Program-made: the position numbers and the translations under genes | Source of the DNA: a virus | Length of the DNA: 31,482 nucleotides | Direction: 5' to 3' (one strand) | IMG/VR virus record: IMGVR_UViG_3300036466_000037 | Coordinates: 1-31,482 of that record | The notes under the pieces: generated by a model | Databases searched by the model: none | Seen by the model: the letters and a program-made list of their open reading frames with translations, nothing else | What the model was told of the DNA's origin: nothing | Part shown: positions 10,313-29,295 of the stretch, one piece after another | How the letters are laid out: each line of letters opens with the position of its first letter | How positions within the stretch are numbered: position 1 is the stretch's first letter

Positions 10313-10917
10313 CTTCCCTAGTTGTTCATCTATAGGCGTTAGCTATAGACCGTCTTTCGACAGCTCATGGTTACCCATGAGAGCAGACTATCTCTTCAAC
10401 TCTTGAGTTATTTAAGTAGTTAATGGCAGATTGTAATCGCTCCGTAGAGTCTTTAAGCAATCCTATTGCCGTATTACAATTAGTGCAGAGGAGTCCTCTA
10501 ATCTTTTTTGTAGTATGACAGTGGTCAATGGCAAGTTTTGTATATCTACTGGAACCCATTAGACAATTACAAATTGCACAACAACCTCTTTGTTTCATTA
10601 ACATCTCTATGTAATCAGTATATCCAATCCCATGTGCAGTATAAATGCGCAGTTGTAATGTACACTTTTTACACTCAGCTCTTGGGGCATTAGAATCCTT
10701 ACGGAAATAAAACTCACTGACGGGCTTTTCAGTCCCACATAATTTACATTCTTTCATTTGAATCCTTTGAGTTGACTCCCGTTTCGCTTCACTTGAAGCT
10801 ACGCCTTTCGGCTAGTCGTTACACCTTCCTATCTTGCGATTAGGCTTGGCTCGGTATTTTCCTTATGGAAGTTCACCGAATTAGAGAGTTGTTTATTTAT
10901 AAGAGAACCCCGTTTTA
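10313..10917 (-). ncRNA. Group I intron interrupting the capsid gene
   Basis: A 605-nt insertion splits the capsid frame exactly between GKSA and SFPIIG. Exon 1 ends in T and the intron ends in G, the group I rule. The last exon 1 bases (ATAAGAGTGCT-like run read 3' to 5' from 10918) pair with a guide sequence at 10909-10899 (GGTTCTCTTAT) in a P1 helix with a U.G pair at the splice site and one mismatch. The AACGG just before it (10914-10910) pairs with the first five bases of exon 2 (TCGTT) as P10. P/Q/R-like core elements are visible at 10882-10872, 10855-10848 (ACCGAGCC) and 10822-10812 (GTAACGACTAG). GAAA-capped hairpins occur on both sides of the ORF and a CTATAG...CTATAG hairpin near the 3' end. 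An endonuclease gene lies inside. The subgroup is not resolved. Confidence 0.88.
10371..10757 (-). CDS. Intron-encoded HNH homing endonuclease, endonuclease VII type
   Basis: This 128-residue protein lies entirely inside the capsid intron. An N-terminal zinc site (CKLCGTEKPVSEF, then CKKC near residue 30) is followed by the endonuclease VII-like HNH: CAICNCLM at about 60-67, LAIDHCHTTKKIRGLLCTNC at about 75-95, and NTAIGLLKD after it. The IDHCH motif supplies the metal-binding and catalytic His. Related free-standing and intron enzymes cut intron-less alleles so that repair copies the intron in; here the expected target is the capsid gene. AAAGGA stands 6 bases before the ATG. The stop codon is 58 bases before the 3' splice site, so the ORF sits in a peripheral loop after most of the ribozyme core. 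Confidence 0.9.
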   Translation of the reverse strand: MKECKLCGTEKPVSEFYFRKDSNAPRAECKKCTLQLRIYTAHGIGYTDYIEMLMKQRGCCAICNCLMGSSRYTKLAIDHCHTTKKIRGLLCTNCNTAIGLLKDSTERLQSAINYLNNSRVEEIVCSHG

Positions 10918-11082
10918 AGCACTCTTACCATTAGCGATTGAACGCTCTTGGAATTTACCTTCAGTTACAGTTGTTTCTTTGAATGCAGTTAATACTTCAC
11001 CAGCGAAGACCTTAAGAAATAGAGCCTTTTTATCACCAGAAGTATTAATCTGACCAATGTTTGATACGTTAGCGTTAGCCAT
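10918..11082 (-). CDS. Major capsid protein (T7 gp10-like), exon 1
   Basis: The 5' exon has 55 codons: MANANVSNIGQINTSGDKKA, then LFLKVFAGEVLTAFKETTVT and finally ERSIANGKSA. This matches the T7 gp10 N-terminal region (GDKLALFLKVFGGEVLTAF and SGKSAQFPVLG). The ATG at 11082 has AAGG 8 bases upstream. Unspliced, the frame meets a TAA immediately after GKSA, which makes the intron's presence lethal to capsid synthesis unless it is removed. It is too short and lacks its own stop, so simple ORF calling misses it. The exon junction falls between two residues (A55 and S56) that are adjacent in the conserved GKSA-x-FP motif. Confidence 0.93.
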
Positions 11083-11288
11083 TATTTATTACCTTGTGTT
11101 AGTTTAAGAAAGTTATAGCAACCCTCCAGAACTGGACACACATGCACGAGATTATCTTCCTCAGAAGGTCAGGGTCGTGTTATCTATTCTTGAAATTTGC
11201 ATTACCACCGCAAAGAATGCAGTGTGGTATTTTCTAAACATAAACATAGGTAGCCTCCCCAGTATTACCTAGGGAGGTCTTGAGACTA
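11083..11288 (-). other. Capsid leader: 206-base spacer with hairpins and a possible 28-residue ORF
   Basis: This is the longest gap in the structural region. Just after the holin-like gene there is a hairpin at 11254-11277 (CCTCCCT with GGGGAGG) that lacks a T-run, so it looks more like a processing or stability structure than a terminator. Another hairpin begins with ACCAC and ends with GTGGT near 11190-11215. GGTTGCTATAAC at 11113-11124 recalls part of the TTCTAATTGTGCAAC-type repeats found upstream of other genes, but the match is short. The 3' arm of the first hairpin doubles as a strong GGGGAGG ribosome-binding site, 6 bases before an ATG that opens a 28-codon frame (11164-11250) beginning MFMFRKYHTAFFAVV. 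Whether that peptide is made is unclear. Confidence 0.4.
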
Positions 11289-14656: not shown

Positions 14657-14675
14657 GTTCTCCTAATGGGCAACC
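14657..14675 (-). promoter_or_regulatory. Diverged copy of the GTTGCACAATTAGAA block
   Basis: GGTTGCCCATTAGGAGAAC on the minus strand resembles the GGTTGCACAATTAGAA core of the three repeats at 23090, 24858 and 27627, after one gap and a GA insertion. It lies just after a terminator and before the first morphogenesis gene, where a late promoter would be expected. It overlaps that gene's ribosome-binding site, so chance similarity is possible. Confidence 0.3.
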
Positions 14676-14708: not shown

Positions 14709-16682
14709 CTACTTAATTGGACAAGCCCCACTAGCACAATCTTGATTTTCCATCTCATCCATGCTGTTTGCTTTATCCATTTCTAATGGAACAATGCGTG
14801 ACACATACTCGTCATAAGCTTCTTTGGTTACTACCTCTTGTGGGAGATATAGGTATCCAAGGTCAGCTGCTGTCTTCGTTGGGTCTGCTCGGAATAAGAA
14901 TGAAACACCTACATAAATATCCCAGTTCTCTAATAGCCAAGCCTCAATTGCTGGGACTTCATCTATAGAGTAAGAGATAGTTGCAGATACATTCTGTTGA
15001 CACCAGTTCACCATGAGAACCTTGTAGCGTTCTAGTTGGCTAATAGCTGATTCAAGATTAACTTCCATAACTGTTTCTTTGCCATTGATAACTTTAGTTA
15101 CTTTGTCAAAAGGTACGTCATCCCATTTCACAGGGAAGGTAATTAAGACTGAGGTAACATCAGTTGGACTATCAATCACTCGGTAGCCAGCTGCTCGACA
15201 TAGTGGAACCAATGGGTCATGCTTAGAGAAGTTCACATTGTTAAAGATGTACTTACCTAAAGGTTTATGAAGACCTTCTGTGGTATCCATAATTTTACTT
15301 AGAGTACCTGAAGGTTTAACTGTAGTGACATTCTTAGGTCGTGGAAGACCTAACTCATCAGCCATTGAGTAAGCACCTGAGGTAGCTACTCGTTGTAAGT
15401 CTGAGTAGTCATAGCTTCCTAAGTCTGGTCTACGTACTAAGCCAGTAAGTCCTACACCACATAAGCGTAGGAACTCATTGTTTAGATGCCATGACTCTTG
15501 CAAGATACCATCCATAAGATTGACACAGGTTTGTCTATAGTTTGCACGAGAAGCTATATGAATAGCCCTGCGTAAACCTGAAGAGTCCCCTTTGAATTTA
15601 CCCACATCTACTTCTGTTAGGTTACAGAATGACTTATTACCTAATAAAATTTCTGCACATGGATTGCATCCTTTAAACCAAGGAGCACGTTTGGTGGCTG
15701 TCTGAGCATTAATGAATGCTGGTTCTGAACCACCAGACTCAACCATTAAGTCAAAGATATACTTAAGTTCCTCTGGATTAGGCTTGCTTTTAAAGAGTAG
15801 GGAGTTGTTTGACTGAGCACGTTGAGGGTTAGTTACCCACCAATCTTTCTTCGCTGTTGCGAACTCTTGCCACTCTTCTTCCCCATAGACAAAGAGTGCA
15901 ATCTCGGCTGACCTACGAGAACTAAGGACAGTCCCAAGCCAATTAACAACATCAAGAATATCAATGCGAGTAAGAAGAGTGCCAGACCTACGGTTAAGTA
16001 TTTCAGCAATTGCAGTATAGGCAGTAGCAATAGCTGTATCGCCAGAACTAATCCAGCCGTAACCTTTGAGGCGGTCTCCAGCAGGTCTAATCTCAGAGAA
16101 ATCCAAGACCAGTTTAGTAGCTGGATATTTATGTGACATAAGTTTACCCACTGACTTAGCCCATGCTTCAGCTGAGTCACCCACCTTAATAGTCCAGACA
16201 CCAGTTTCTTTATCATAAGTCTCAACATTCTCCTGTTCACCACCCTTGGTAGTTCTAGTACTCTTAACTACTTCAATCTTAAGAGGCTTAATGAATCCTG
16301 TGAGACTACCTACAATAGGACTGAAGCCTACACCACAGCCTTGTAGCAGTAGCCATAGAATATCTACACAGTCATACACAGTTTCTACATTGGTGAAGCT
16401 ACAGTTGAACTGTGAAGCTTCTCGTTTCTTTGCTACTTCTGTACCACCTAGCCATAAGGTTCTACCTGAGGTCAGTACCTTGCGGTCTAACATGAGTGAG
16501 CGTAGTTCTTCTAGCTCTGCTGTATCTGCTGTACCTGAGCGATTCCAAAGCCATTCTTGGTGACCAATGACTCGACCTACAGTTTCTTCCCAGCTTTCAA
16601 ACTCTTTACCAAGCTCATCCTTTGGTCGGTTGTAGGTTCGTCTTGTGATTAATTGAGCACGTAATGAAGGCTCTAGTTGCAT
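14709..16682 (-). CDS. nrdJ: Class II (adenosylcobalamin-dependent) ribonucleoside-triphosphate reductase, monomeric type
   Basis: This 657-residue enzyme converts ribonucleotides to deoxyribonucleotides for phage DNA synthesis. It matches the monomeric Lactobacillus leichmannii-type enzyme: FNCSFTNV holds the first reducible Cys (C94), GCNPCAEI holds the thiyl-radical Cys with its Asn and Glu neighbours, followed by SFCNLTEVD with the second reducible Cys. The C-terminal CASGACPIK supplies the Cys pair that shuttles electrons from thioredoxin. It is somewhat shorter than the usual 740 residues. AAGGAATAACC precedes the ATG. It is a single-gene unit, with a repeat-bearing upstream spacer and its own terminator. 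Its use of B12 implies a host or habitat where cobalamin is available. Class II enzymes are known in cyanophages and other marine podoviruses. Confidence 0.95.
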   Translation of the reverse strand: MQLEPSLRAQLITRRTYNRPKDELGKEFESWEETVGRVIGHQEWLWNRSGTADTAELEELRSLMLDRKVLTSGRTLWLGGTEVAKKREASQFNCSFTNVETVYDCVDILWLLLQGCGVGFSPIVGSLTGFIKPLKIEVVKSTRTTKGGEQENVETYDKETGVWTIKVGDSAEAWAKSVGKLMSHKYPATKLVLDFSEIRPAGDRLKGYGWISSGDTAIATAYTAIAEILNRRSGTLLTRIDILDVVNWLGTVLSSRRSAEIALFVYGEEEWQEFATAKKDWWVTNPQRAQSNNSLLFKSKPNPEELKYIFDLMVESGGSEPAFINAQTATKRAPWFKGCNPCAEILLGNKSFCNLTEVDVGKFKGDSSGLRRAIHIASRANYRQTCVNLMDGILQESWHLNNEFLRLCGVGLTGLVRRPDLGSYDYSDLQRVATSGAYSMADELGLPRPKNVTTVKPSGTLSKIMDTTEGLHKPLGKYIFNNVNFSKHDPLVPLCRAAGYRVIDSPTDVTSVLITFPVKWDDVPFDKVTKVINGKETVMEVNLESAISQLERYKVLMVNWCQQNVSATISYSIDEVPAIEAWLLENWDIYVGVSFLFRADPTKTAADLGYLYLPQEVVTKEAYDEYVSRIVPLEMDKANSMDEMENQDCASGACPIK

Positions 16683-16845
16683 TGGTTATTCCTTATAATT
16701 ATTTTGGTAACTGTTATCTTTGGTCAAGTATTTGAAACTACTTATTATTAATATTCTTTTCATTACCTATTGTTCACATTTTTAAACTTTCCACGTACCG
16801 TGAACATTTTCATTCGTAATACAAATTAGTTAGTGTTGAATGAAA
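16683..16845 (-). promoter_or_regulatory. Reductase upstream spacer with TTGACC repeat and a TGTTCAC inverted repeat
   Basis: This AT-rich 163-base spacer holds no ORF. At 16718-16740 the minus strand reads ...TTTCAAATACTTGACCAAAG, nearly the same as a segment upstream of the RNA polymerase gene (27556-27585). At 16771-16777 and 16800-16806 lies an inverted repeat, TGTTCAC and GTGAACA, 22 bases apart. If TTGACC were a sigma-70 -35 box, transcription would start only about 10 bases before the reductase ATG, too close for its ribosome-binding site. A phage-polymerase promoter or a regulatory site fits better. These are inferences. Confidence 0.4.
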
Positions 16846-23044: not shown

Positions 23045-23073
23045 AAAAAATAAGGGAGAGCCGAAGCCCTCCC
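23045..23073 (-). terminator. Rho-independent terminator just before the primase-helicase gene
   Basis: On the minus strand an 8-bp stem (GGGAGGGC with GCTCTCCC, one G.U) is capped by a TTCG tetraloop and followed by TTATTTTTT. It lies between the lysozyme gene and the primase-helicase start at 23035, and 17 bases downstream of a conserved intergenic repeat. It is the best terminator in the replication region and should limit expression of replication genes. Confidence 0.88.
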
Positions 23074-23089: not shown

Positions 23090-23131
23090 TTCTAATTGTG
23101 CAACTTGTGGTAATGGTTGCCTTTAGACAAC
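23090..23131 (-). promoter_or_regulatory. Intergenic repeat copy 3 (TTCTAATTGTGCAAC block with upstream hairpin)
   Basis: The plus strand reads TTCTAATTGTGCAACTTGTG at 23090-23109, with one difference from copies at 24858 and 27627. On the minus (transcribed) strand a hairpin, GTTGTC with GGCAAC, precedes the block and overlaps the lysozyme stop codon. ACAAACTTA follows it, as at copy 2. The position between genes, near-identity and orientation suggest a phage RNA polymerase promoter or an RNA processing site. Confidence 0.5.
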
Positions 23132-23596
23132 ATTATGTTTTAGCCAATCCTTTACTTCAAAACTAGGACACGCCTTAGCCACATTAGGAAAATCCTTGTG
23201 TCCCTGCACTATAGCCTTGGGATACATACCCTTAAGCTCCACTAATAAGTCATGGAGTTTTTCAAACTGTGTACTTGTGAAGTTGTTCTCAGCCTTAGTT
23301 ACATCATTGGCATCCACTCCTCCAACCATACATACACCCACAGAGTTAGAGTTATAGCCTTCAACATGTGCCCCAATGACATTCTTTGCACGACCACGTT
23401 CTATGGTTCCATCCCTGCGAATTACATAATGATAGCCAATACAGGCAAAACCTCGCTTCCTGTGCCATTCATTCAGCTCTACTGCACCTATATTCATCTT
23501 GTCTGTAGTCGCTGAACAGTGGATAGCAATCCAATCTGTAGTAGCTCTTACTTTAGTTTTAGAATCGTAGGCGGTTCCTACTACTGTTACTGTCAT
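23123..23596 (-). CDS. N-acetylmuramoyl-L-alanine amidase / lysozyme (T7 gp3.5-like)
   Basis: This 157-residue amidase cleaves the bond between muramic acid and the peptide stem at lysis. Zinc ligands are His-26 (AIHCSAT), His-133 (GHKDFPN) and Cys-143 (KACPSF). Tyr-55 (GYHYV) and Lys-141 match the catalytic Tyr and Lys of T7 lysozyme, and AHVEGYNSNSVGVCMVGG is the usual central block. In T7 the same protein also binds and inhibits the phage RNA polymerase, so dual function is possible but not shown here. Its ATG overlaps the endonuclease I stop (ATGA). Inner-membrane passage probably needs the holin-like protein at 11289-11678. Confidence 0.95.
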   Translation of the reverse strand: MTVTVVGTAYDSKTKVRATTDWIAIHCSATTDKMNIGAVELNEWHRKRGFACIGYHYVIRRDGTIERGRAKNVIGAHVEGYNSNSVGVCMVGGVDANDVTKAENNFTSTQFEKLHDLLVELKGMYPKAIVQGHKDFPNVAKACPSFEVKDWLKHNVV

Positions 23597-24039
23597 GATT
23601 TCTTTTCTTCCTTAAGCCATGAATCAGGAATGCTCTTGTCTGCATAAATGAATCCATGCTTGTTGCACCACATTCCATAGGTGGTTGTACTAAGTTTAGA
23701 GATGCGTGTTTTAGAATTACCAAAGACAAACCTAATGTCTATGTGTGGGTGTTGTGCTTTAACTAAGATATGTTTCTGCCTGTCAGAGGTCAGAAATCGA
23801 CCTTTGGACTCGACCACTATCCCATTCGGTAGCTCCCAATCTGGGTGGTACTTATGTTCTTTGGCTGGCTTGGTATATTTAATAACCATTCCCTCATAAA
23901 CAAAACTCACCCCCTTAGAGGTGAGTGATTTAGAGATTTCAAGTTCAAGCCCAGAGCGATAGCCCTGAGCCAGAGCTATCTTGTCTAGGTTATTGTAGGT
24001 GTTAGAAGTCTTCTGGGTTTTCTTCATCTGACTTTTCAC
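23593..24039 (-). CDS. Holliday-junction endonuclease I (T7 gp3-like)
   Basis: This 148-residue protein carries the catalytic residues of T7 endonuclease I at matching spacing: Glu-32 in RSGLELEI, Asp-67 in YHPDWELPNG, and Glu-77/Lys-79 in VVESKGRF. The T7 equivalents are E20, D55, E65 and K67, a constant offset of 12. The enzyme resolves branched DNA before packaging and helps degrade host DNA. The frame's first start is a GTG at 24039; an ATG at 24027 is an equally good start, and both overlap the SSB gene. The neighbours (SSB upstream, lysozyme downstream) follow T7 order 2.5-3-3.5. Confidence 0.94.
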   Translation of the reverse strand: MKSQMKKTQKTSNTYNNLDKIALAQGYRSGLELEISKSLTSKGVSFVYEGMVIKYTKPAKEHKYHPDWELPNGIVVESKGRFLTSDRQKHILVKAQHPHIDIRFVFGNSKTRISKLSTTTYGMWCNKHGFIYADKSIPDSWLKEEKKS

Positions 24040-24616
24040 TATTACTGAAAGGAGTATCTTCTACCTCTTGTTCAAAACCTTCTTCTTCCTTGAAGCCCAT
24101 AGCTTGTGCACTTAGACCACCAGTGAACTCCACAAGGTTAAGTACCTGCACTGCTTTTAAGCGTAGTGATACACCAGCACCAATCAAAGCTGTATAGAAG
24201 CCGAAGCATTCGTAATTAACCTTAACCACACTACCGCCACCTACGTTGATATCTTTAAGTGGGTGAAGTTTTGCATCAAAGATAGTTGGTCGTTGTTCAA
24301 AGCTGTCACCATTCTTCATGTTGACCTTAGCCTTCATCTTAAAGGTAACCTCTACCTCACCTGTTTCCTCATTAACTTTATACGGAGGGTCAGCCTCACG
24401 AACCTTCTTACCTACATTGTCTTTCTTTGCTTGTGCTACTGAAGCCTCTAGACGTTCATCCAAGAACTTAACAATAGGAGCTGCTGCTTCTGCACCTAAT
24501 ACGACAGTGATTTTGTAGTCACCATCTGGATTGAACTTTGTGTCTGGAGTGTTTAACCAAGGATACTTTGCGACTCCCTTAGGTGTTGTAAAGTTTGGTG
24601 TTTTAATTGTTGCCAT
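24002..24616 (-). CDS. Single-stranded DNA-binding protein (T7 gp2.5-like)
   Basis: This 204-residue protein starts MATIKTPNFTTPKGVAKYPW, typical of gp2.5-type SSBs, with an OB-fold core (VAKYPWLNTPDTKFNPDGDY, then VEVTFKMKAKVNMKNG and VVKVNYECFGFY). The C-terminal 30 residues are strongly acidic and end with Phe (...ENPEDF). In T7 such a tail with a terminal aromatic residue contacts the polymerase and the primase-helicase. AAGGAAACACGCAA precedes the ATG. It coats single-stranded DNA at the fork and promotes annealing. Confidence 0.94.
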   Translation of the reverse strand: MATIKTPNFTTPKGVAKYPWLNTPDTKFNPDGDYKITVVLGAEAAAPIVKFLDERLEASVAQAKKDNVGKKVREADPPYKVNEETGEVEVTFKMKAKVNMKNGDSFEQRPTIFDAKLHPLKDINVGGGSVVKVNYECFGFYTALIGAGVSLRLKAVQVLNLVEFTGGLSAQAMGFKEEEGFEQEVEDTPFSNSEKSDEENPEDF

Positions 24617-24630
24617 TTGCGTGTTTCCTT

Positions 24631-24828
24631 TTAGTGTGTGAAATATCTTGCTTCTAACATCTGTACGTCATAACCATCCTCAAGAAGCTCGTGGTACATA
24701 GTCAGAGGGATGTGATTTCCTTTCTGCCATATTGAGACTGCTCGACCTAATGCACTGCGATACTCTTCAATTGTTTCCATTTCATCTTCCTCATCAATAA
24801 GTTTATCTACCCAATCTGACTGTTCCAT
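24631..24828 (-). CDS. Hypothetical acidic protein after RNA polymerase, 65 residues
   Basis: The frame is open from 24915, but the ATG at 24828 is preceded by AAGAAGGG and gives MEQSDWVDKLIDEEDEMETI, while the upstream extension overlaps the RNA polymerase end and a conserved intergenic repeat. The 65-residue protein is acidic in its first third and resembles nothing I can name. It lies where T7 has genes 1.1-1.3, between RNA polymerase and SSB, and is the first gene after the presumed promoter repeat at 24858-24900. Confidence 0.68.
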   Translation of the reverse strand: MEQSDWVDKLIDEEDEMETIEEYRSALGRAVSIWQKGNHIPLTMYHELLEDGYDVQMLEARYFTH

Positions 24829-24857
24829 AACGACCCTTCTTAAGTTTGTGTTTCTGC

Positions 24858-24900
24858 TTCTAATTGTGCAACCTGTGGGGAATGGTTGACACTTGGCAAC
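24858..24900 (-). promoter_or_regulatory. Intergenic repeat copy 2 (TTCTAATTGTGCAAC block), just after RNA polymerase
   Basis: TTCTAATTGTGCAACCTGTG at 24858-24877 (plus strand) is identical over 20 bases to the copy at 27627. On the transcribed strand an imperfect hairpin (GTTGCC...GTCAAC) precedes the block and ACAAACTTA follows it, as in copy 3. T7 places its first class II promoter (phi 1.1A) at the corresponding point directly after gene 1, which supports a promoter reading. Confidence 0.52.
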
Positions 24901-24902
24901 AT

Positions 24903-27425
24903 TTAGGCAAAACAATAGCTACTATCTATAATATTAGATAAATCTAGTGTTCCCCTTGTTGGTAGTTCAGGCACTGCCTTCTTCTTAGCTGGTGACATAT
25001 AGCTAGTAATCTCATCCCTAAAGTTTTCTAATACATCTTGGTCATACATCTCAATGAATGTCTCACGGACAATACGGTAGAGTTCTTGAGCATCACCAGC
25101 GGTAGTCCCAAAGCTGTCATGAATCATGGCGAAGTTAGTCAGACCTTCTTGACTTGCTCTTACTACTGTAAGTCCCATGTGCGCTGCATCACAAGAATGG
25201 ATGTAATTTGGAGAAATGGCACTAGACATCTTAGACTTATTAAGTTTGTCCTTCTCTTTATACATAGTTAGATACACCAGCTTTCCACTAATAGAAGTCT
25301 TTACTCTTCTAAGTTGTAGGTCAGGGTAGCTTTGCATCACTGGGAAGCCAATAGGTGTAGTCCAGCGAACAGGAAGCTCTTCTGAAGCAGCGATAGAAGC
25401 AGCTGATTGTAGCCATTTCATTGCTTCACCAGCTTTCACCAATACTACATTCACTGACACCCATATAGCCTTGGCTAAGTAACAAGCTCCTTGATATCCA
25501 TCACCAGTGAAGGCAAAGGTTGTCCCTGCTCTTTGACAAGCTTGGTAAGCTGGTCTTAGTATGTCCTCCATCAATTGTGTTTTAAAGCCATACTCTTTAG
25601 AACCATAGGCTAGAGTCATGACAGGTCTCTTGGTTGTCTTGCGGTTAATACCAAAGACTAGCCACTGCTTTGCTAAGGTCTTTGTACCTGCTTTAACGTA
25701 AGCCGTTCCATCCTCATAATGTTTAACCTCATCCTCAGTACCGTGGATAACATCATGATTGACCTGCTCTAACACCTTGTCAGCCACTAGCTTATAGACA
25801 TCTTGAGGTGTATCCATAGGAATCAAGTTGACAGCAGAGCCACCTAGCTCATCTCTTAACTGACTTGAGAAGTGTTGGATACCTGAGCATGAACCATCAA
25901 AGGCTACTGAAATCTTAGATACAAAGCTGTCACCATGCTCAACATAGCCAGCCCACTCAAAGCAGAATGCTAAGAACTGCCAAGGCTTGTCTATCTCGAC
26001 ATCACCAATAGTACCTTGCCATCCTTTATTGTTATAAGGGTCATTAGCAATAGCGACTATCTCTTCTTCATGGTCTAGCACCCACTCAACTCTTTGCTCA
26101 AGTGTTACCTTGTCATAGCCAGCTACGTTAGCTCCTTGGAATGCTAACCACTTCCACCCCTCTTTACCTAAAGGTTTACCTACAGCAAAGCGAAGTAATG
26201 ATTTATGGAAGTCAGCACCCTGTGGATTCAGCTGGGGGACAGCATAGATACGACCACGGAAGTCCAGCTGATACGGAAAGTAAATCTTACGATACTTCTC
26301 GTACCTCTTAGCGATACCTAAAGCCATACTAAAGCTTACTCGTTGACCAGCAATAGATAGGTTCTGAACGTGCATCTTAGCTGCTTGTATTCTCCACTCT
26401 CTCTTAGCTTCTTCATTCGTAGCAATATCATGTGGTTTAGGTGGTAGCTCCATGCCATCTCTTGAAGGAAGACCTGCTACTTCCACCCCTGAATCCCATA
26501 AGACCTTCATCACTTCTAGTACCTGTGAATTAATCTGCCATGCTGTGTGTTGTAGTTTATTAACAGCTTCATAGACAATAGGCATATCAGTGTGGTTAAG
26601 CTCTTCAATATAGTTTCTATTGTCAGACTTAACTAACTGTAGAGGCTTAATGTTTGAACTAATATACCCACCATCATTAGGTGTAGTCCAATCCCTAGGT
26701 TTAACAACCATAGGCTCAAACACTGGTCTTAATGAAGCCATTACATCATTCTTCTTTTCTATCCATGCTAGTGTGCTAGGAAGAGCCTTCACATACTTGA
26801 TAGATTGGTTCTTATCTACTTTCTGGTGTGTAATCTCTACGATACCTATGGTCTCCACACAGACATCAAGCAGTTTAATACCTACATGTAGTCTATCTGT
26901 CCTTGTCCAGTTATCCCATGTAGAAAACTTATCAGCCTGTCTTAAGGCATAGACATGTTTGTAATGGTAGCTACTGCGCTTCTTAGCTCCGACCATAATT
27001 CTTTCATACCGCTGTCTTTCATCTTTACGAATACCTGCAAGACGAACCTCATCTTCTACAGCTGTACCTATAGCAACACCTACGAACTGTAAGGTTCTTA
27101 CACTAGAGATACCAGCCATTAGATTCTTAAGAGTTAAGAAAGCTAAGACATTACTAGGTATATCTTTAACTAGAGGGTAGCAAGCATACCTACGACCTGC
27201 ATTACCTAACGACATATCAAGTTTCCAAGCATCTATAGCTTGGGCAACTAAAGCTACTCTATGACTGACTAGAGTTTGACCATAGCTTGTACTGTCTTCT
27301 GCTCCTCTTTCTACTGAGCCTCTGCTGTTCTTAATGTACTTCTCAGCACCTCTTGAAGTCATCTCTTCTTCAAGTCTTACCTGAGTTGACATTAAGTCTT
27401 CTTCAGTTGTATCTATGGTCATCAT
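24903..27425 (-). CDS. Single-subunit DNA-directed RNA polymerase (T7 gp1-like)
   Basis: This 840-residue enzyme transcribes middle and late phage genes from phage-specific promoters. Motif A is VAFDGSCSGIQHFSS with Asp-510; motif B is RKTTKRPVMTLAYGSKEYGF with Arg-595, Lys-599 and Tyr-607; motif C is MIHDSFGT with Asp-770. These correspond to T7 D537, R627, K631, Y639 and D812. The C-terminus SSYCFA parallels T7's essential DFAFA foot. It is slightly shorter than T7 RNAP (883). AGGAATTATAAAA precedes two adjacent ATG codons at 27425. Upstream lie the attP region and two repeat elements, so its early expression may depend on promoters there or on read-through from the integrase operon. Confidence 0.97.
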   Translation of the reverse strand: MMTIDTTEEDLMSTQVRLEEEMTSRGAEKYIKNSRGSVERGAEDSTSYGQTLVSHRVALVAQAIDAWKLDMSLGNAGRRYACYPLVKDIPSNVLAFLTLKNLMAGISSVRTLQFVGVAIGTAVEDEVRLAGIRKDERQRYERIMVGAKKRSSYHYKHVYALRQADKFSTWDNWTRTDRLHVGIKLLDVCVETIGIVEITHQKVDKNQSIKYVKALPSTLAWIEKKNDVMASLRPVFEPMVVKPRDWTTPNDGGYISSNIKPLQLVKSDNRNYIEELNHTDMPIVYEAVNKLQHTAWQINSQVLEVMKVLWDSGVEVAGLPSRDGMELPPKPHDIATNEEAKREWRIQAAKMHVQNLSIAGQRVSFSMALGIAKRYEKYRKIYFPYQLDFRGRIYAVPQLNPQGADFHKSLLRFAVGKPLGKEGWKWLAFQGANVAGYDKVTLEQRVEWVLDHEEEIVAIANDPYNNKGWQGTIGDVEIDKPWQFLAFCFEWAGYVEHGDSFVSKISVAFDGSCSGIQHFSSQLRDELGGSAVNLIPMDTPQDVYKLVADKVLEQVNHDVIHGTEDEVKHYEDGTAYVKAGTKTLAKQWLVFGINRKTTKRPVMTLAYGSKEYGFKTQLMEDILRPAYQACQRAGTTFAFTGDGYQGACYLAKAIWVSVNVVLVKAGEAMKWLQSAASIAASEELPVRWTTPIGFPVMQSYPDLQLRRVKTSISGKLVYLTMYKEKDKLNKSKMSSAISPNYIHSCDAAHMGLTVVRASQEGLTNFAMIHDSFGTTAGDAQELYRIVRETFIEMYDQDVLENFRDEITSYMSPAKKKAVPELPTRGTLDLSNIIDSSYCFA

Positions 27426-27555
27426 TTTTATAATTCCTATTTAGTGGTAATTATTGGTTCAAATCTTAAGACACCTATAGATTCTTTAAGTCTTCTTTAG
27501 GTATTCCTAAGGTCAGTCTTATTTCTTTTATTACAGATATCGGATGTCGATTTAT

Positions 27556-27585
27556 CTATTGCCTTTGGTCAAGTGTTTGACACTA
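27556..27585 (-). promoter_or_regulatory. TTGACC-type repeat upstream of RNA polymerase
   Basis: The minus strand reads GTGTCAAACACTTGACCAAA followed by GGCAATAG. It matches the segment upstream of the ribonucleotide reductase (16718-16740) and more loosely those at 29404-29430 and 29525-29546. TTGACC resembles a -35 box but no good -10 lies 16-18 bases downstream. It may be a phage promoter or operator. Confidence 0.42.
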
Positions 27586-27626
27586 GATTGTGGCAGATTC
27601 GTCAACTACTCATCTTTTGGCTTTAC

Positions 27627-27659
27627 TTCTAATTGTGCAACCTGTGCCAGTTGGCAACT
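27627..27659 (-). promoter_or_regulatory. Intergenic repeat copy 1 (TTCTAATTGTGCAAC block)
   Basis: TTCTAATTGTGCAACCTGTG at 27627-27646 (plus strand) is identical to copy 2. On the transcribed strand it follows a short hairpin, TGCC-AACT-GGCA. It lies about 200 bases upstream of the RNA polymerase start, so it could allow autogenous transcription of that gene or mark an RNA processing site in the early transcript. Confidence 0.5.
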
Positions 27660-27758
27660 AATTATCTATAAAAAACAGGAAGTTATCGCTAAGTCCCTGT
27701 TGTTTATAGACAAGAGATTAATCACTGTCTTTTCTTACTGTTAATTTACTCTAAATCT

Positions 27759-27861: not shown

Positions 27862-27923
27862 TATGCCACTATTATTGCCACTTCTACCACATCTACCACA
27901 TTTGTGGCACCTACTTTATGCCA
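27862..27923 (-). repeat. Integrase arm-type repeat cluster (TGCCAC / CTACCAC)
   Basis: The plus strand carries TGCCACT at 27864-27870 and 27876-27882. CTACCAC follows at 27884-27890 and 27893-27899, then an inverted TGCCAC (GTGGCA) at 27904-27909 and TGCCA at 27919. The cluster sits between the attP core and the integrase stop codon. Regularly spaced short repeats beside a core site are what arm-binding sites of a tyrosine integrase look like. The function is inferred from position. Confidence 0.55.
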
Positions 27924-28965
27924 ATTTAAGTCTTGGTTTAAAGTTTTCCCTGTAGTTATCTAAGGCAATTTTACCTTCTAATAACTTGTTTGGAGCCAAG
28001 TGCATGTACCTTGCTGTGGTCAATGGAGAGGCATGACCCATCCATTTCTGAATGAACTCCGCAGTCTTGTCCTGCATAGCCATTCGACTTGCACAGGTAT
28101 GTCTTAAGCTGTGCACAACAAACTGTGTATCTTCTAGTAGTCCTAAGGTTTCTCTTAAGAGTGCCCATTGGTCTCTAAGTTTTGATACAGTTAAATCATC
28201 AAATAACTTAGTGTTATTCCAGCGTTCCTCAATGATTGCCTCTACTCTGCTAGTAGCTGGTATAGCACGAGCCTTAGATGTCTTAGTTTCATCAGGGTGC
28301 AGCCCTAGCATACCATTACGATACTCTTTCACTTGGAAGTCTAGTAGCTCCATTCTTCTGAAGCCTGTATCAACCGCAACGACAATGAAATCTCTCAGGC
28401 TGTATAGCCCAAGTCTTTCACAGGTAGCCAATACCTTCAGCTCTTCACCTGCATCCATCCAGCGAATCCTATGAGTACCTGCTGACCTACGCTTCATGTA
28501 AGGGATACTGTCTATCCAGCCCTCACCTGCTGAAGTCTTAAGCATCATGGATAATGCGGAAATCTTTGCATTCACAGTTCCACCAGCATTACCATCATCC
28601 TCAAATTCTTCTACCATCTCACGAATCAAGACTGAGGTAATATTCTCCACAGGCATCTCGTTACCAAAGAACTTCAAGACTGAACCAGCTGTCTTTGTGT
28701 GAGCTGAAGACTTATTCTGTGACCAAGTGTCTTTCACAGTGATGTCATAGGCATCCTTTAATGAGTGACCCACACCTTTACCTATGCTAGTGGGTTTCAT
28801 GCGCTCCTGTAGTGATTGTGAAGACTTCACAGCACCCTTACGGATAGCTTCTTCAAGACTTAAGGCTTTCTCAGCTTCATCTCTTGATTTATAGCTCTTA
28901 CGGAAGCGATTCTCACCACTGCCGATACATACTTCAAAACTATTGCCTCTGTCATAGATAGGCAT
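27916..28965 (-). CDS. int: Tyrosine-family site-specific integrase
   Basis: This 349-residue recombinase has the full catalytic set: Arg-203 in DTGFRRMELLDF, a Lys in DETKTSKAR (228 or 231), His-285/Arg-288 in HSLRHTCASRM, His-311 in MGHASPLTTARYMHL, and nucleophile Tyr-320. The N-terminal 65 residues form an arm-binding-like domain (FRKSYKSRDEAEKAL), followed by a SAM-like core-binding domain (residues 68-155). It should integrate the phage into a host tRNA-Leu gene using the attP core 100 bases downstream. AAGGATAAC precedes the ATG, 7 bases after the regulator gene, so the two are one operon. No excisionase is recognised nearby, though any of the small genes could serve. Confidence 0.95.
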   Translation of the reverse strand: MPIYDRGNSFEVCIGSGENRFRKSYKSRDEAEKALSLEEAIRKGAVKSSQSLQERMKPTSIGKGVGHSLKDAYDITVKDTWSQNKSSAHTKTAGSVLKFFGNEMPVENITSVLIREMVEEFEDDGNAGGTVNAKISALSMMLKTSAGEGWIDSIPYMKRRSAGTHRIRWMDAGEELKVLATCERLGLYSLRDFIVVAVDTGFRRMELLDFQVKEYRNGMLGLHPDETKTSKARAIPATSRVEAIIEERWNNTKLFDDLTVSKLRDQWALLRETLGLLEDTQFVVHSLRHTCASRMAMQDKTAEFIQKWMGHASPLTTARYMHLAPNKLLEGKIALDNYRENFKPRLKLA

Positions 28966-28971
28966 GATTAG

Positions 28972-29295
28972 TTATCCTTTATCTTTTAACTTCTTGATAA
29001 ATGCTTGTCCACTAAAGGTAAGAGTAATAATCTTACGTCTACGCTCTAGTGGGTCTTCTACTGCCTCGACTAACTTAAAGCCAGCCTCATGATACCTGTT
29101 GATACTTCCTAAAGCCCCTATGTGGCGACTACAGGTAGAGATGCCGATACCAAGTTTTTCACTTAGGTCAGTCATGGTGATTCCATTCTCACCAGCCATT
29201 CCTACCGTTAGTAGAGCCATAATTTGTCCTAAGGGCATCTCAGTGTCTAACTCTCTAAATAGGTCTAGCACACCCATTACTACTCTTAATTCCAT
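28972..29295 (-). CDS. MarR-like winged-helix transcriptional regulator
   Basis: This 107-residue protein has a winged-helix domain: MALLTVGMAGENGITMTDLS, recognition helix ISTCSRHIGALG, and wing EDPLERRRKIITLTFSGQAF, the DPxxRRxKxxxLT pattern of the MarR family wing. It is shorter than full MarR proteins and lacks most of the N- and C-terminal dimer helices. AGGAGAAAGTT precedes the ATG. It is co-transcribed with the integrase and is the only visible candidate for a lysogeny or early-gene regulator in the window. Intergenic repeats at 29386-29430 just upstream could be its operators. The DNA-binding call is firm; its role is inferred. Confidence 0.85.
   Translation of the reverse strand: MELRVVMGVLDLFRELDTEMPLGQIMALLTVGMAGENGITMTDLSEKLGIGISTCSRHIGALGSINRYHEAGFKLVEAVEDPLERRRKIITLTFSGQAFIKKLKDKG

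Follow-up and report, generated by a model that had tools for sequence, protein, structure and literature searches.

Promoters of phages T7, T3, SP6 and K11 are non-sigma motifs of ~20 bp that serve a single-subunit RNA polymerase (RNAP) and carry C−7 A−6 C−5 and a purine start. These four share a 'bac core', CACTATAG (PMC13029058). LUZ100, a T7-like phage with temperate features for which transcripts have been mapped, carries a phage promoter immediately upstream of its RNAP gene and a MarR-like gene that is cotranscribed with its integrase gene (PMC10134795). For Bordetella phage vB_BbrP_BB8 (Gyeongsanvirus), promoters are neither annotated in the record nor mentioned in the paper (PMC7073063).

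We analysed a 31,482-nucleotide stretch of viral DNA (IMG/VR record IMGVR_UViG_3300036466_000037), here called the window. It is probably part of a genome of 40–43 kb. Its gene set is T7-like, with a replication part (RNA polymerase, SSB, endonuclease I, amidase, primase/helicase, DNA polymerase, exonuclease and ribonucleotide reductase) and a structural part (portal, scaffold, capsid, tail proteins and internal virion proteins). The features that bear on the argument are as follows.

24903–27425, minus strand: T7-type single-subunit RNA polymerase, 840 aa (phrog_414, E 7e-272; Pfam RNA_pol and RPOL_N; T7 RNAP, E about 1e-174)
27624–27647, minus strand: phi1, predicted promoter before the RNA polymerase gene; GCACAGGTTGCACAATTAGAAGTA; predicted +1 A at 27630; 17.4 bits with the relatives' profile
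24855–24878, minus strand: phi2, predicted promoter just past the RNA polymerase gene; CCACAGGTTGCACAATTAGAAGCA; predicted +1 at 24861; 20.9 bits
23087–23110, minus strand: phi3, predicted promoter before gene 4 (primase/helicase); CCACAAGTTGCACAATTAGAAATA; predicted +1 at 23093; 15.7 bits
14657–14680, minus strand: phi4, predicted late-class promoter before the structural genes; TTAGAGGTTGCCCATTAGGAGAAC; predicted +1 at 14663; 20.2 bits
27759–27814, minus strand: presumed attP core, formed by a tRNA-Leu(TAA) 3' half that runs from the anticodon stem to CCA; its counterpart in the HAI-2 prophage of P. putida is the 55-nt attL/attR repeat
27916–28965, minus strand: tyrosine integrase, 349 aa (PF00589, E 5.7e-16; phrog_1, E 9.7e-39)
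28972–29295, minus strand: winged-helix protein beside the integrase, 107 aa, candidate regulator (PF13412 HTH_24, 27.4 bits against a cutoff of 21.9; MarR_2 below cutoff)

The sites in the window resemble the T7, T3, SP6 and K11 promoters in motif type, CAC and purine start, and have the same geometry as those of T7, T3 and SP6 once CAC is indexed at −7 to −5. They share GGT at −12 to −10 with SP6 (ATTTAGGTGACACTATA, PMC11617373), but read TG at −9 and −8, where SP6 has GA and T7 has CT. Unlike in all four phages, the three main copies are predicted to start with A and the core is CACAATT(A/G): from −7 to +1, phi1–phi3 read CACAATTA and phi4 reads CCCATTAG. Because this core is other than CACTATAG, we do not place phi1–phi4 in the T7/T3/SP6/K11 subgroup.

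By architecture, the window is like LUZ100 in being T7-like, with an integrase before the RNAP, a promoter directly before the RNAP and a regulator with the integrase (MarR-like there, winged-helix here), although the two RNAPs are only 39.6% identical. The LUZ100 promoter motif is 17-bp, and it is likened to ours by position, not by motif letters (PMC10134795). Phage vB_BbrP_BB8 has a 61.7% identical RNAP, a tyrosine integrase before the RNAP and predicted promoters GGTTGCACATAAGGATA and GGTTGCACAATAGGATA at corresponding places, whereas its predicted starts are with G. In its record (MK984681), the predicted +1 positions are about 7070, 9763, 19082 and 41007.

Predicted promoters in the window and its relatives

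The repeats had been proposed, from the letters alone, as possible promoters of the 840-residue polymerase. This reading is now strongly supported, because the profile search, the conserved synteny and the covariation between polymerase and promoter all point to it, and we regard it as very probable that the repeats are promoters of the phage's own T7-type single-subunit RNA polymerase. The polymerase is 39% identical to T7 RNAP, which already fixes its fold. The genome thus holds a cognate single-subunit RNAP together with a motif repeated between genes, always along transcription, at the RNAP, replication and structural blocks.

Consistent with the original prediction, the 20-base repeat has three intergenic copies in the window at no more than one mismatch (23090–23109, with one mismatch, 24858–24877 and 27627–27646), all in one common orientation. 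The pattern TTCTAATTGTGCAACCTGTG, which is the repeat as searched, was found three times in the window and in none of 100 dinucleotide shuffles, so that zero copies were expected. The annotated genes of the region are all on the minus strand, and the functional reading of the repeat is therefore CACARGTTGCACAATTAGAA. The shared sequence that had been noticed downstream of two copies is ACAAACTTA. From its predicted start point, the repeat lies 205 nt ahead of the polymerase start codon, 42 nt past the polymerase stop and 58 nt ahead of gene 4; phi2 has a 33-nt leader to the ATG of a small ORF (24828), with the SSB gene next. We know of no such promoter directly before gene 1 in T7. Accordingly, the proposed match to T7 class II positions stands for the site after gene 1 but not for the one directly before it, which matches the temperate T7-like LUZ100 instead (PMC10134795).

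With CAC set at −7 to −5 and a purine at +1, the consensus in T7 numbering is GGTTGC(A/C)CAATT followed by (A/G)GA, with a conserved block from −12 to +3; base by base it runs G−12 G−11 T−10 T−9 G−8 C−7 A−6 C−5 A−4 A−3 T−2 T−1. Closer relatives carry it as GGTTGC(A/C)CAATT(G/A)GA.

Relatives were collected as 46 loci from viral contigs with the polymerase as query, 80 with an alignment as query and 17 more from bacterial genomes. With the window and its nearest relative (G013) excluded, 52 sites from the relatives were used to build a profile, which held most of its information within −12 to +3. On the gene strand of the window, this profile gave exactly four sites, phi1–phi4 (20.9, 20.2, 17.4 and 15.7 bits; next best 1.3). 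Against the reading, the opposite strand held one site at 11.1 bits and one of 60 shuffles held a single site at 21.6 bits. The weaker version suspected near 14657 is thus real, with the second-highest score from a profile trained on relatives; its GGAG resembles the ribosome site of the next small ORF as well. In 15 records, the family motifs had 78 matches on the gene strand and 6 on the other, and the strand bias was alike with one common pattern and reversed-pattern controls.

The places of the motif recur in the relatives. A phi1 orthologue lies 85–240 nt upstream of the RNAP gene in nearly all of them, phi2 orthologues lie 10–60 nt past the RNAP stop, phi3 orthologues lie ahead of gene 4, and further sites are found before the structural genes ~12–15 kb on and at ~35 kb, the last directly past the large terminase gene in Bordetella phage BB8. 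We also searched for the best match between both flanks of the polymerase gene with no sequence assumed. This recovered the element in most relatives, each with its own copy before and after the RNAP gene, and other sequences at the same places in some, such as AGTCCTACAATTGGATA in G008 and ATTAACCCCCACTAATAG in Limnohabitans phage YIMV22061. In an exact 20-mer search of viral contigs, the nearest relative was joined by just two others, L006 and L007, which we took as chance matches because the stretches compared had no match to eleven window proteins.

In the window's group, base −6 is A at all phi1–phi3 sites, and C or T at the structural-gene sites (GGTTGCCCAATTGGAAG at the phi4 place in relatives) and right-end sites. 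Elsewhere, −6 is C throughout in G012 and A throughout in BB8, so this late-class rule holds for the window's group and not for all relatives.

Under the promoter reading, the purine of (A/G)GA is the predicted first base of the transcript. The first polymerase would come from host promoters in the early region; phi1 would then drive the polymerase gene itself, giving positive feedback, phi2 and phi3 would drive the replication genes and phi4 the structural genes. Together with the right-end promoter of the relatives, phi4 would form a late class in which C or T replaces A at −6.

Covariation between the polymerase and its predicted promoters

T7 RNAP contacts −10/−11 through N748, −9 through R756 and −8 through Q758 (PMC5937735). 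The specificity loop of the window's RNAP is RRVKTSISGKLVYL (residues 706–719). We asked which of 829 RNAP columns best predicts each promoter base, leaving out the clade with an LQG loop. Residue 718 ranked first of 829 for base −8, and residue 709, the counterpart of T7 Asn748, ranked first of 829 for base −11; residue 707, the counterpart of T7 R746, ranked fourth for base −7. Residue 718 is the likely counterpart of T7 Gln758, although the loop has a one-residue deletion and the pairing of Tyr718 with Gln758 is an alignment choice. The two first-ranked pairs are those in contact in T7, and this covariation is the strongest evidence for the promoter reading. It suggests that bases −12 to −7 are read by the specificity loop, through the matches of T7 residues 746, 748 and 758, with the LQG-loop clade deviating.

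At −8, an aromatic residue 718 goes with G, Lys or Arg with C, and Gln with T. This rule was first seen in a subset of relatives. From Lys718 in L045 it then predicted C−8, and the promoter found was GGTTCCACATACGGATAA. It was also applied to new loci, where promoters were called with no letter favoured at −13 to −8 and with a reward only for agreement between two copies (a few loci offered a single copy, or a single clear one). All 15 of the new loci of the same loop clade fitted the rule, including Gln718 with T−8, which is the T7 combination. Similarly, an acidic residue 709 (Asp in YIMV22061, Glu in L128) goes with C−11 C−10, as in the T3 promoter, and YIMV22061 has a T3-like promoter.

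On a tree built without the loop columns, all five independent pairs that differ at 718 also differ at −8 in the expected direction. Supported branches followed the expected direction in 4 of 4 cases without the LQG clade and in 3.8 of 4 on average with it. A tree-based sign test pointed in the right direction, with the 4–6 independent switches placing 0.05 out of reach. The −8 rule failed beyond the ING/ISG-loop clade: the more distant LQG-loop clade (G014, L163 and L164; about 51% identity) combines Lys718 with A−8 and Gln718 with G−8.

One relative, G007, has Lys718 and C−8 at most of its promoters, and its late promoter is still G−8. In this genome (L067–L069; polymerase at L023:3165–5675), the late promoter lies 14.2 kb past the polymerase start and reads GGTTGCCC. 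It seems either to have been caught mid-switch or to have exchanged its late genes.

We lean somewhat towards a combined picture in which the polymerase–promoter code of this lineage switched repeatedly through coupled changes at 718/−8 and 709/−11, with G007 between states, and in which late promoters with C or T at −6 and early/middle promoters with A−6 form a two-class system. Although the kind of promoter is known, the specificity (GGTTGCAC, lacking the CACTATAG core) and the switching of the code in nature, both read from sequence, appear to be new as far as the literature searched shows. A literature search for the motif letters found no phage paper, and neither TTGCAC nor GGTTGC was among the promoter sequences in the polymerase papers searched (including PMC13029058).

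The predictions thus provide a promoter consensus for a widespread T7-like group, many members of which bear an integrase (environmental phages, BB8 and Pseudomonas prophage relatives) and for which we found none described. A search for the CACTATAG core, as in recent polymerase mining (PMC13029058), would miss these predicted promoters. The group offers a natural experiment on joint changes of specificity in a polymerase and its full set of promoters, a problem that has mostly been tackled with engineered T7, and the polymerase–promoter pairs are candidate orthogonal expression tools.

Hairpins, operators and other readings of the repeats

T7 has RNase III sites between its early genes, and the repeats could in principle be such processing sites, with the conserved element lying within a stem-loop that is cleaved in a long transcript. 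The original prediction allowed for this, as it placed a small hairpin ahead of each copy. We folded 50 nt upstream and 60 nt downstream of each site, also in the relatives. The 50 nt upstream of the three copies folded no better than shuffles (z −0.19, −0.92 and −0.49), and no conserved stem-loop surrounds the element at these copies; a strong terminator-like hairpin lies upstream of phi4 (z −3.48), at only one of the four sites. The hairpins are thus not significant at the three copies, which makes RNase III sites an unlikely cause of the repeat. Short palindromes of the GTTGCCAnnTGGCAAC type near copies 1 and 2 would fit processing, as would the relatives' sites before and after the RNAP gene, where the upstream stretch has a modest folding advantage over shuffles (mean z −2.0 and −1.7), but their gene 4 sites show no average folding signal (mean z 0.12). 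Moreover, the conserved block is compact and single-sided, from −12 to +3, and folding leaves the covariation with specificity-loop residues unexplained. We therefore consider RNase III processing very improbable as an account of the repeats. In the relatives, the palindromes lie mainly just past the polymerase stop codon, and they may be a separate element, possibly a regulator site.

Two further terminator-like elements lie near the predicted promoters.

23045–23073, minus strand: strong terminator-like hairpin GGGAGGGCTTCGGCTCTCCC TTATTTTTT, between phi3 (copy 3) and gene 4; near-identical in the nearest relative G013, with one tail change
27671–27701, minus strand: terminator-like element AACAGG...CCTGTTTTTT, between attP and phi1; identical in G013

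The first is possibly an attenuator or a stop for the host polymerase. At the place of the second, hairpins ending in T runs are also found in the P. putida prophage (HAI-2), L040 and L041.

The phage has an integrase and a winged-helix gene, and operator-like inverted repeats such as GTGTCAAACAC occur downstream of phi1, so that the 20-bp repeats might be operators of a lysogeny regulator (the 107-aa winged-helix protein is one candidate), and the polymerase promoters would then have to lie at other places. However, the sites are asymmetric and directional, they occur across the genome as far as the structural genes, and their variable positions follow the polymerase loop, which leaves this explanation with very little probability. 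The inverted repeat GTGTCAAACAC itself, at 27570–27600 on the minus strand between phi1 and the polymerase gene, is a candidate regulator operator; G013 and L040 have the similar GTGTCAGACAC.

Another intergenic repeat (TAGTGTCAAACACTTGACCAAAGG; 27553–27585 and 16708–16740), with 33 nt common at 82% ahead of the polymerase and ribonucleotide reductase genes, was rejected as the true phage promoter and is the most improbable candidate, as it has only two good copies and its RNAP-side copy is not kept before the RNAP gene of G013 (RNAP 88% identical), where a 2-mismatch match lies elsewhere. This 33-nt repeat contains CAAACACTTGACCAAAG.

Presumed integration site and other genes

With an integrase and a presumed tRNA-Leu attP upstream, the phage is probably temperate. 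The tRNA-Leu 3' half sits between the integrase gene and phi1. Relatives are found integrated in Pseudomonas putida HAI-2 and in a Polynucleobacter genome, where the polymerase gene directly follows tRNA-Leu and the integrase lies ~36–39 kb on, so that in both prophages the RNAP and a phi1-type promoter occupy one end and the integrase the opposite one; HAI-2 has a 55-nt repeat of the tRNA 3' end at both junctions (attL/attR). Of the architecture expected for a LUZ100-like temperate phage, the window itself shows only the attP-like tRNA half and the integrase, and the relatives show RNAP and integrase at opposite prophage ends.

This layout implies that, on integration, the polymerase and its own promoter lose their link to the integrase side of the early region. 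In the relatives, integration at tRNA-Leu would part the polymerase and phi1 from the integrase, and phi1 would then give no transcript before some polymerase has appeared. This cut-off may keep the lysogen silent. A polymerase gene under its own promoter beside an attachment site raises the question of how the loop stays silent in the lysogen. In the window, G013, HAI-2, L040 and L041, the stretch from the tRNA end to phi1 contains terminator-like sequences. Between attP and phi1 (27645–27735, minus strand), about 60–70 nt are identical with G013, whose polymerase is 88% identical, unlike the rest of the intergenic region; the identical stretch may hold integrase or host factor sites.

In several relatives (for instance at L011:14404 and L018:8299), the predicted gene 4 promoter is directly preceded by letters (GTGGCTGAGTGGCTGAAGG) that look like the beginning (5' part) of a tRNA-Ser; this likeness may be chance or a remnant. 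A ribonucleotide reductase gene (14709–16682, minus strand; phrog_367, E 3.7e-168) lies between the replication and structural modules, and LUZ100 has one too. The major capsid gene holds a group I intron (10364–10951, minus strand; Rfam RF00028, 56.4 bits, E 6.2e-12) that carries an endonuclease VII-like ORF (10371–10757); exon 1 appears to start near 11098, with exon 2 within 10207–9524.
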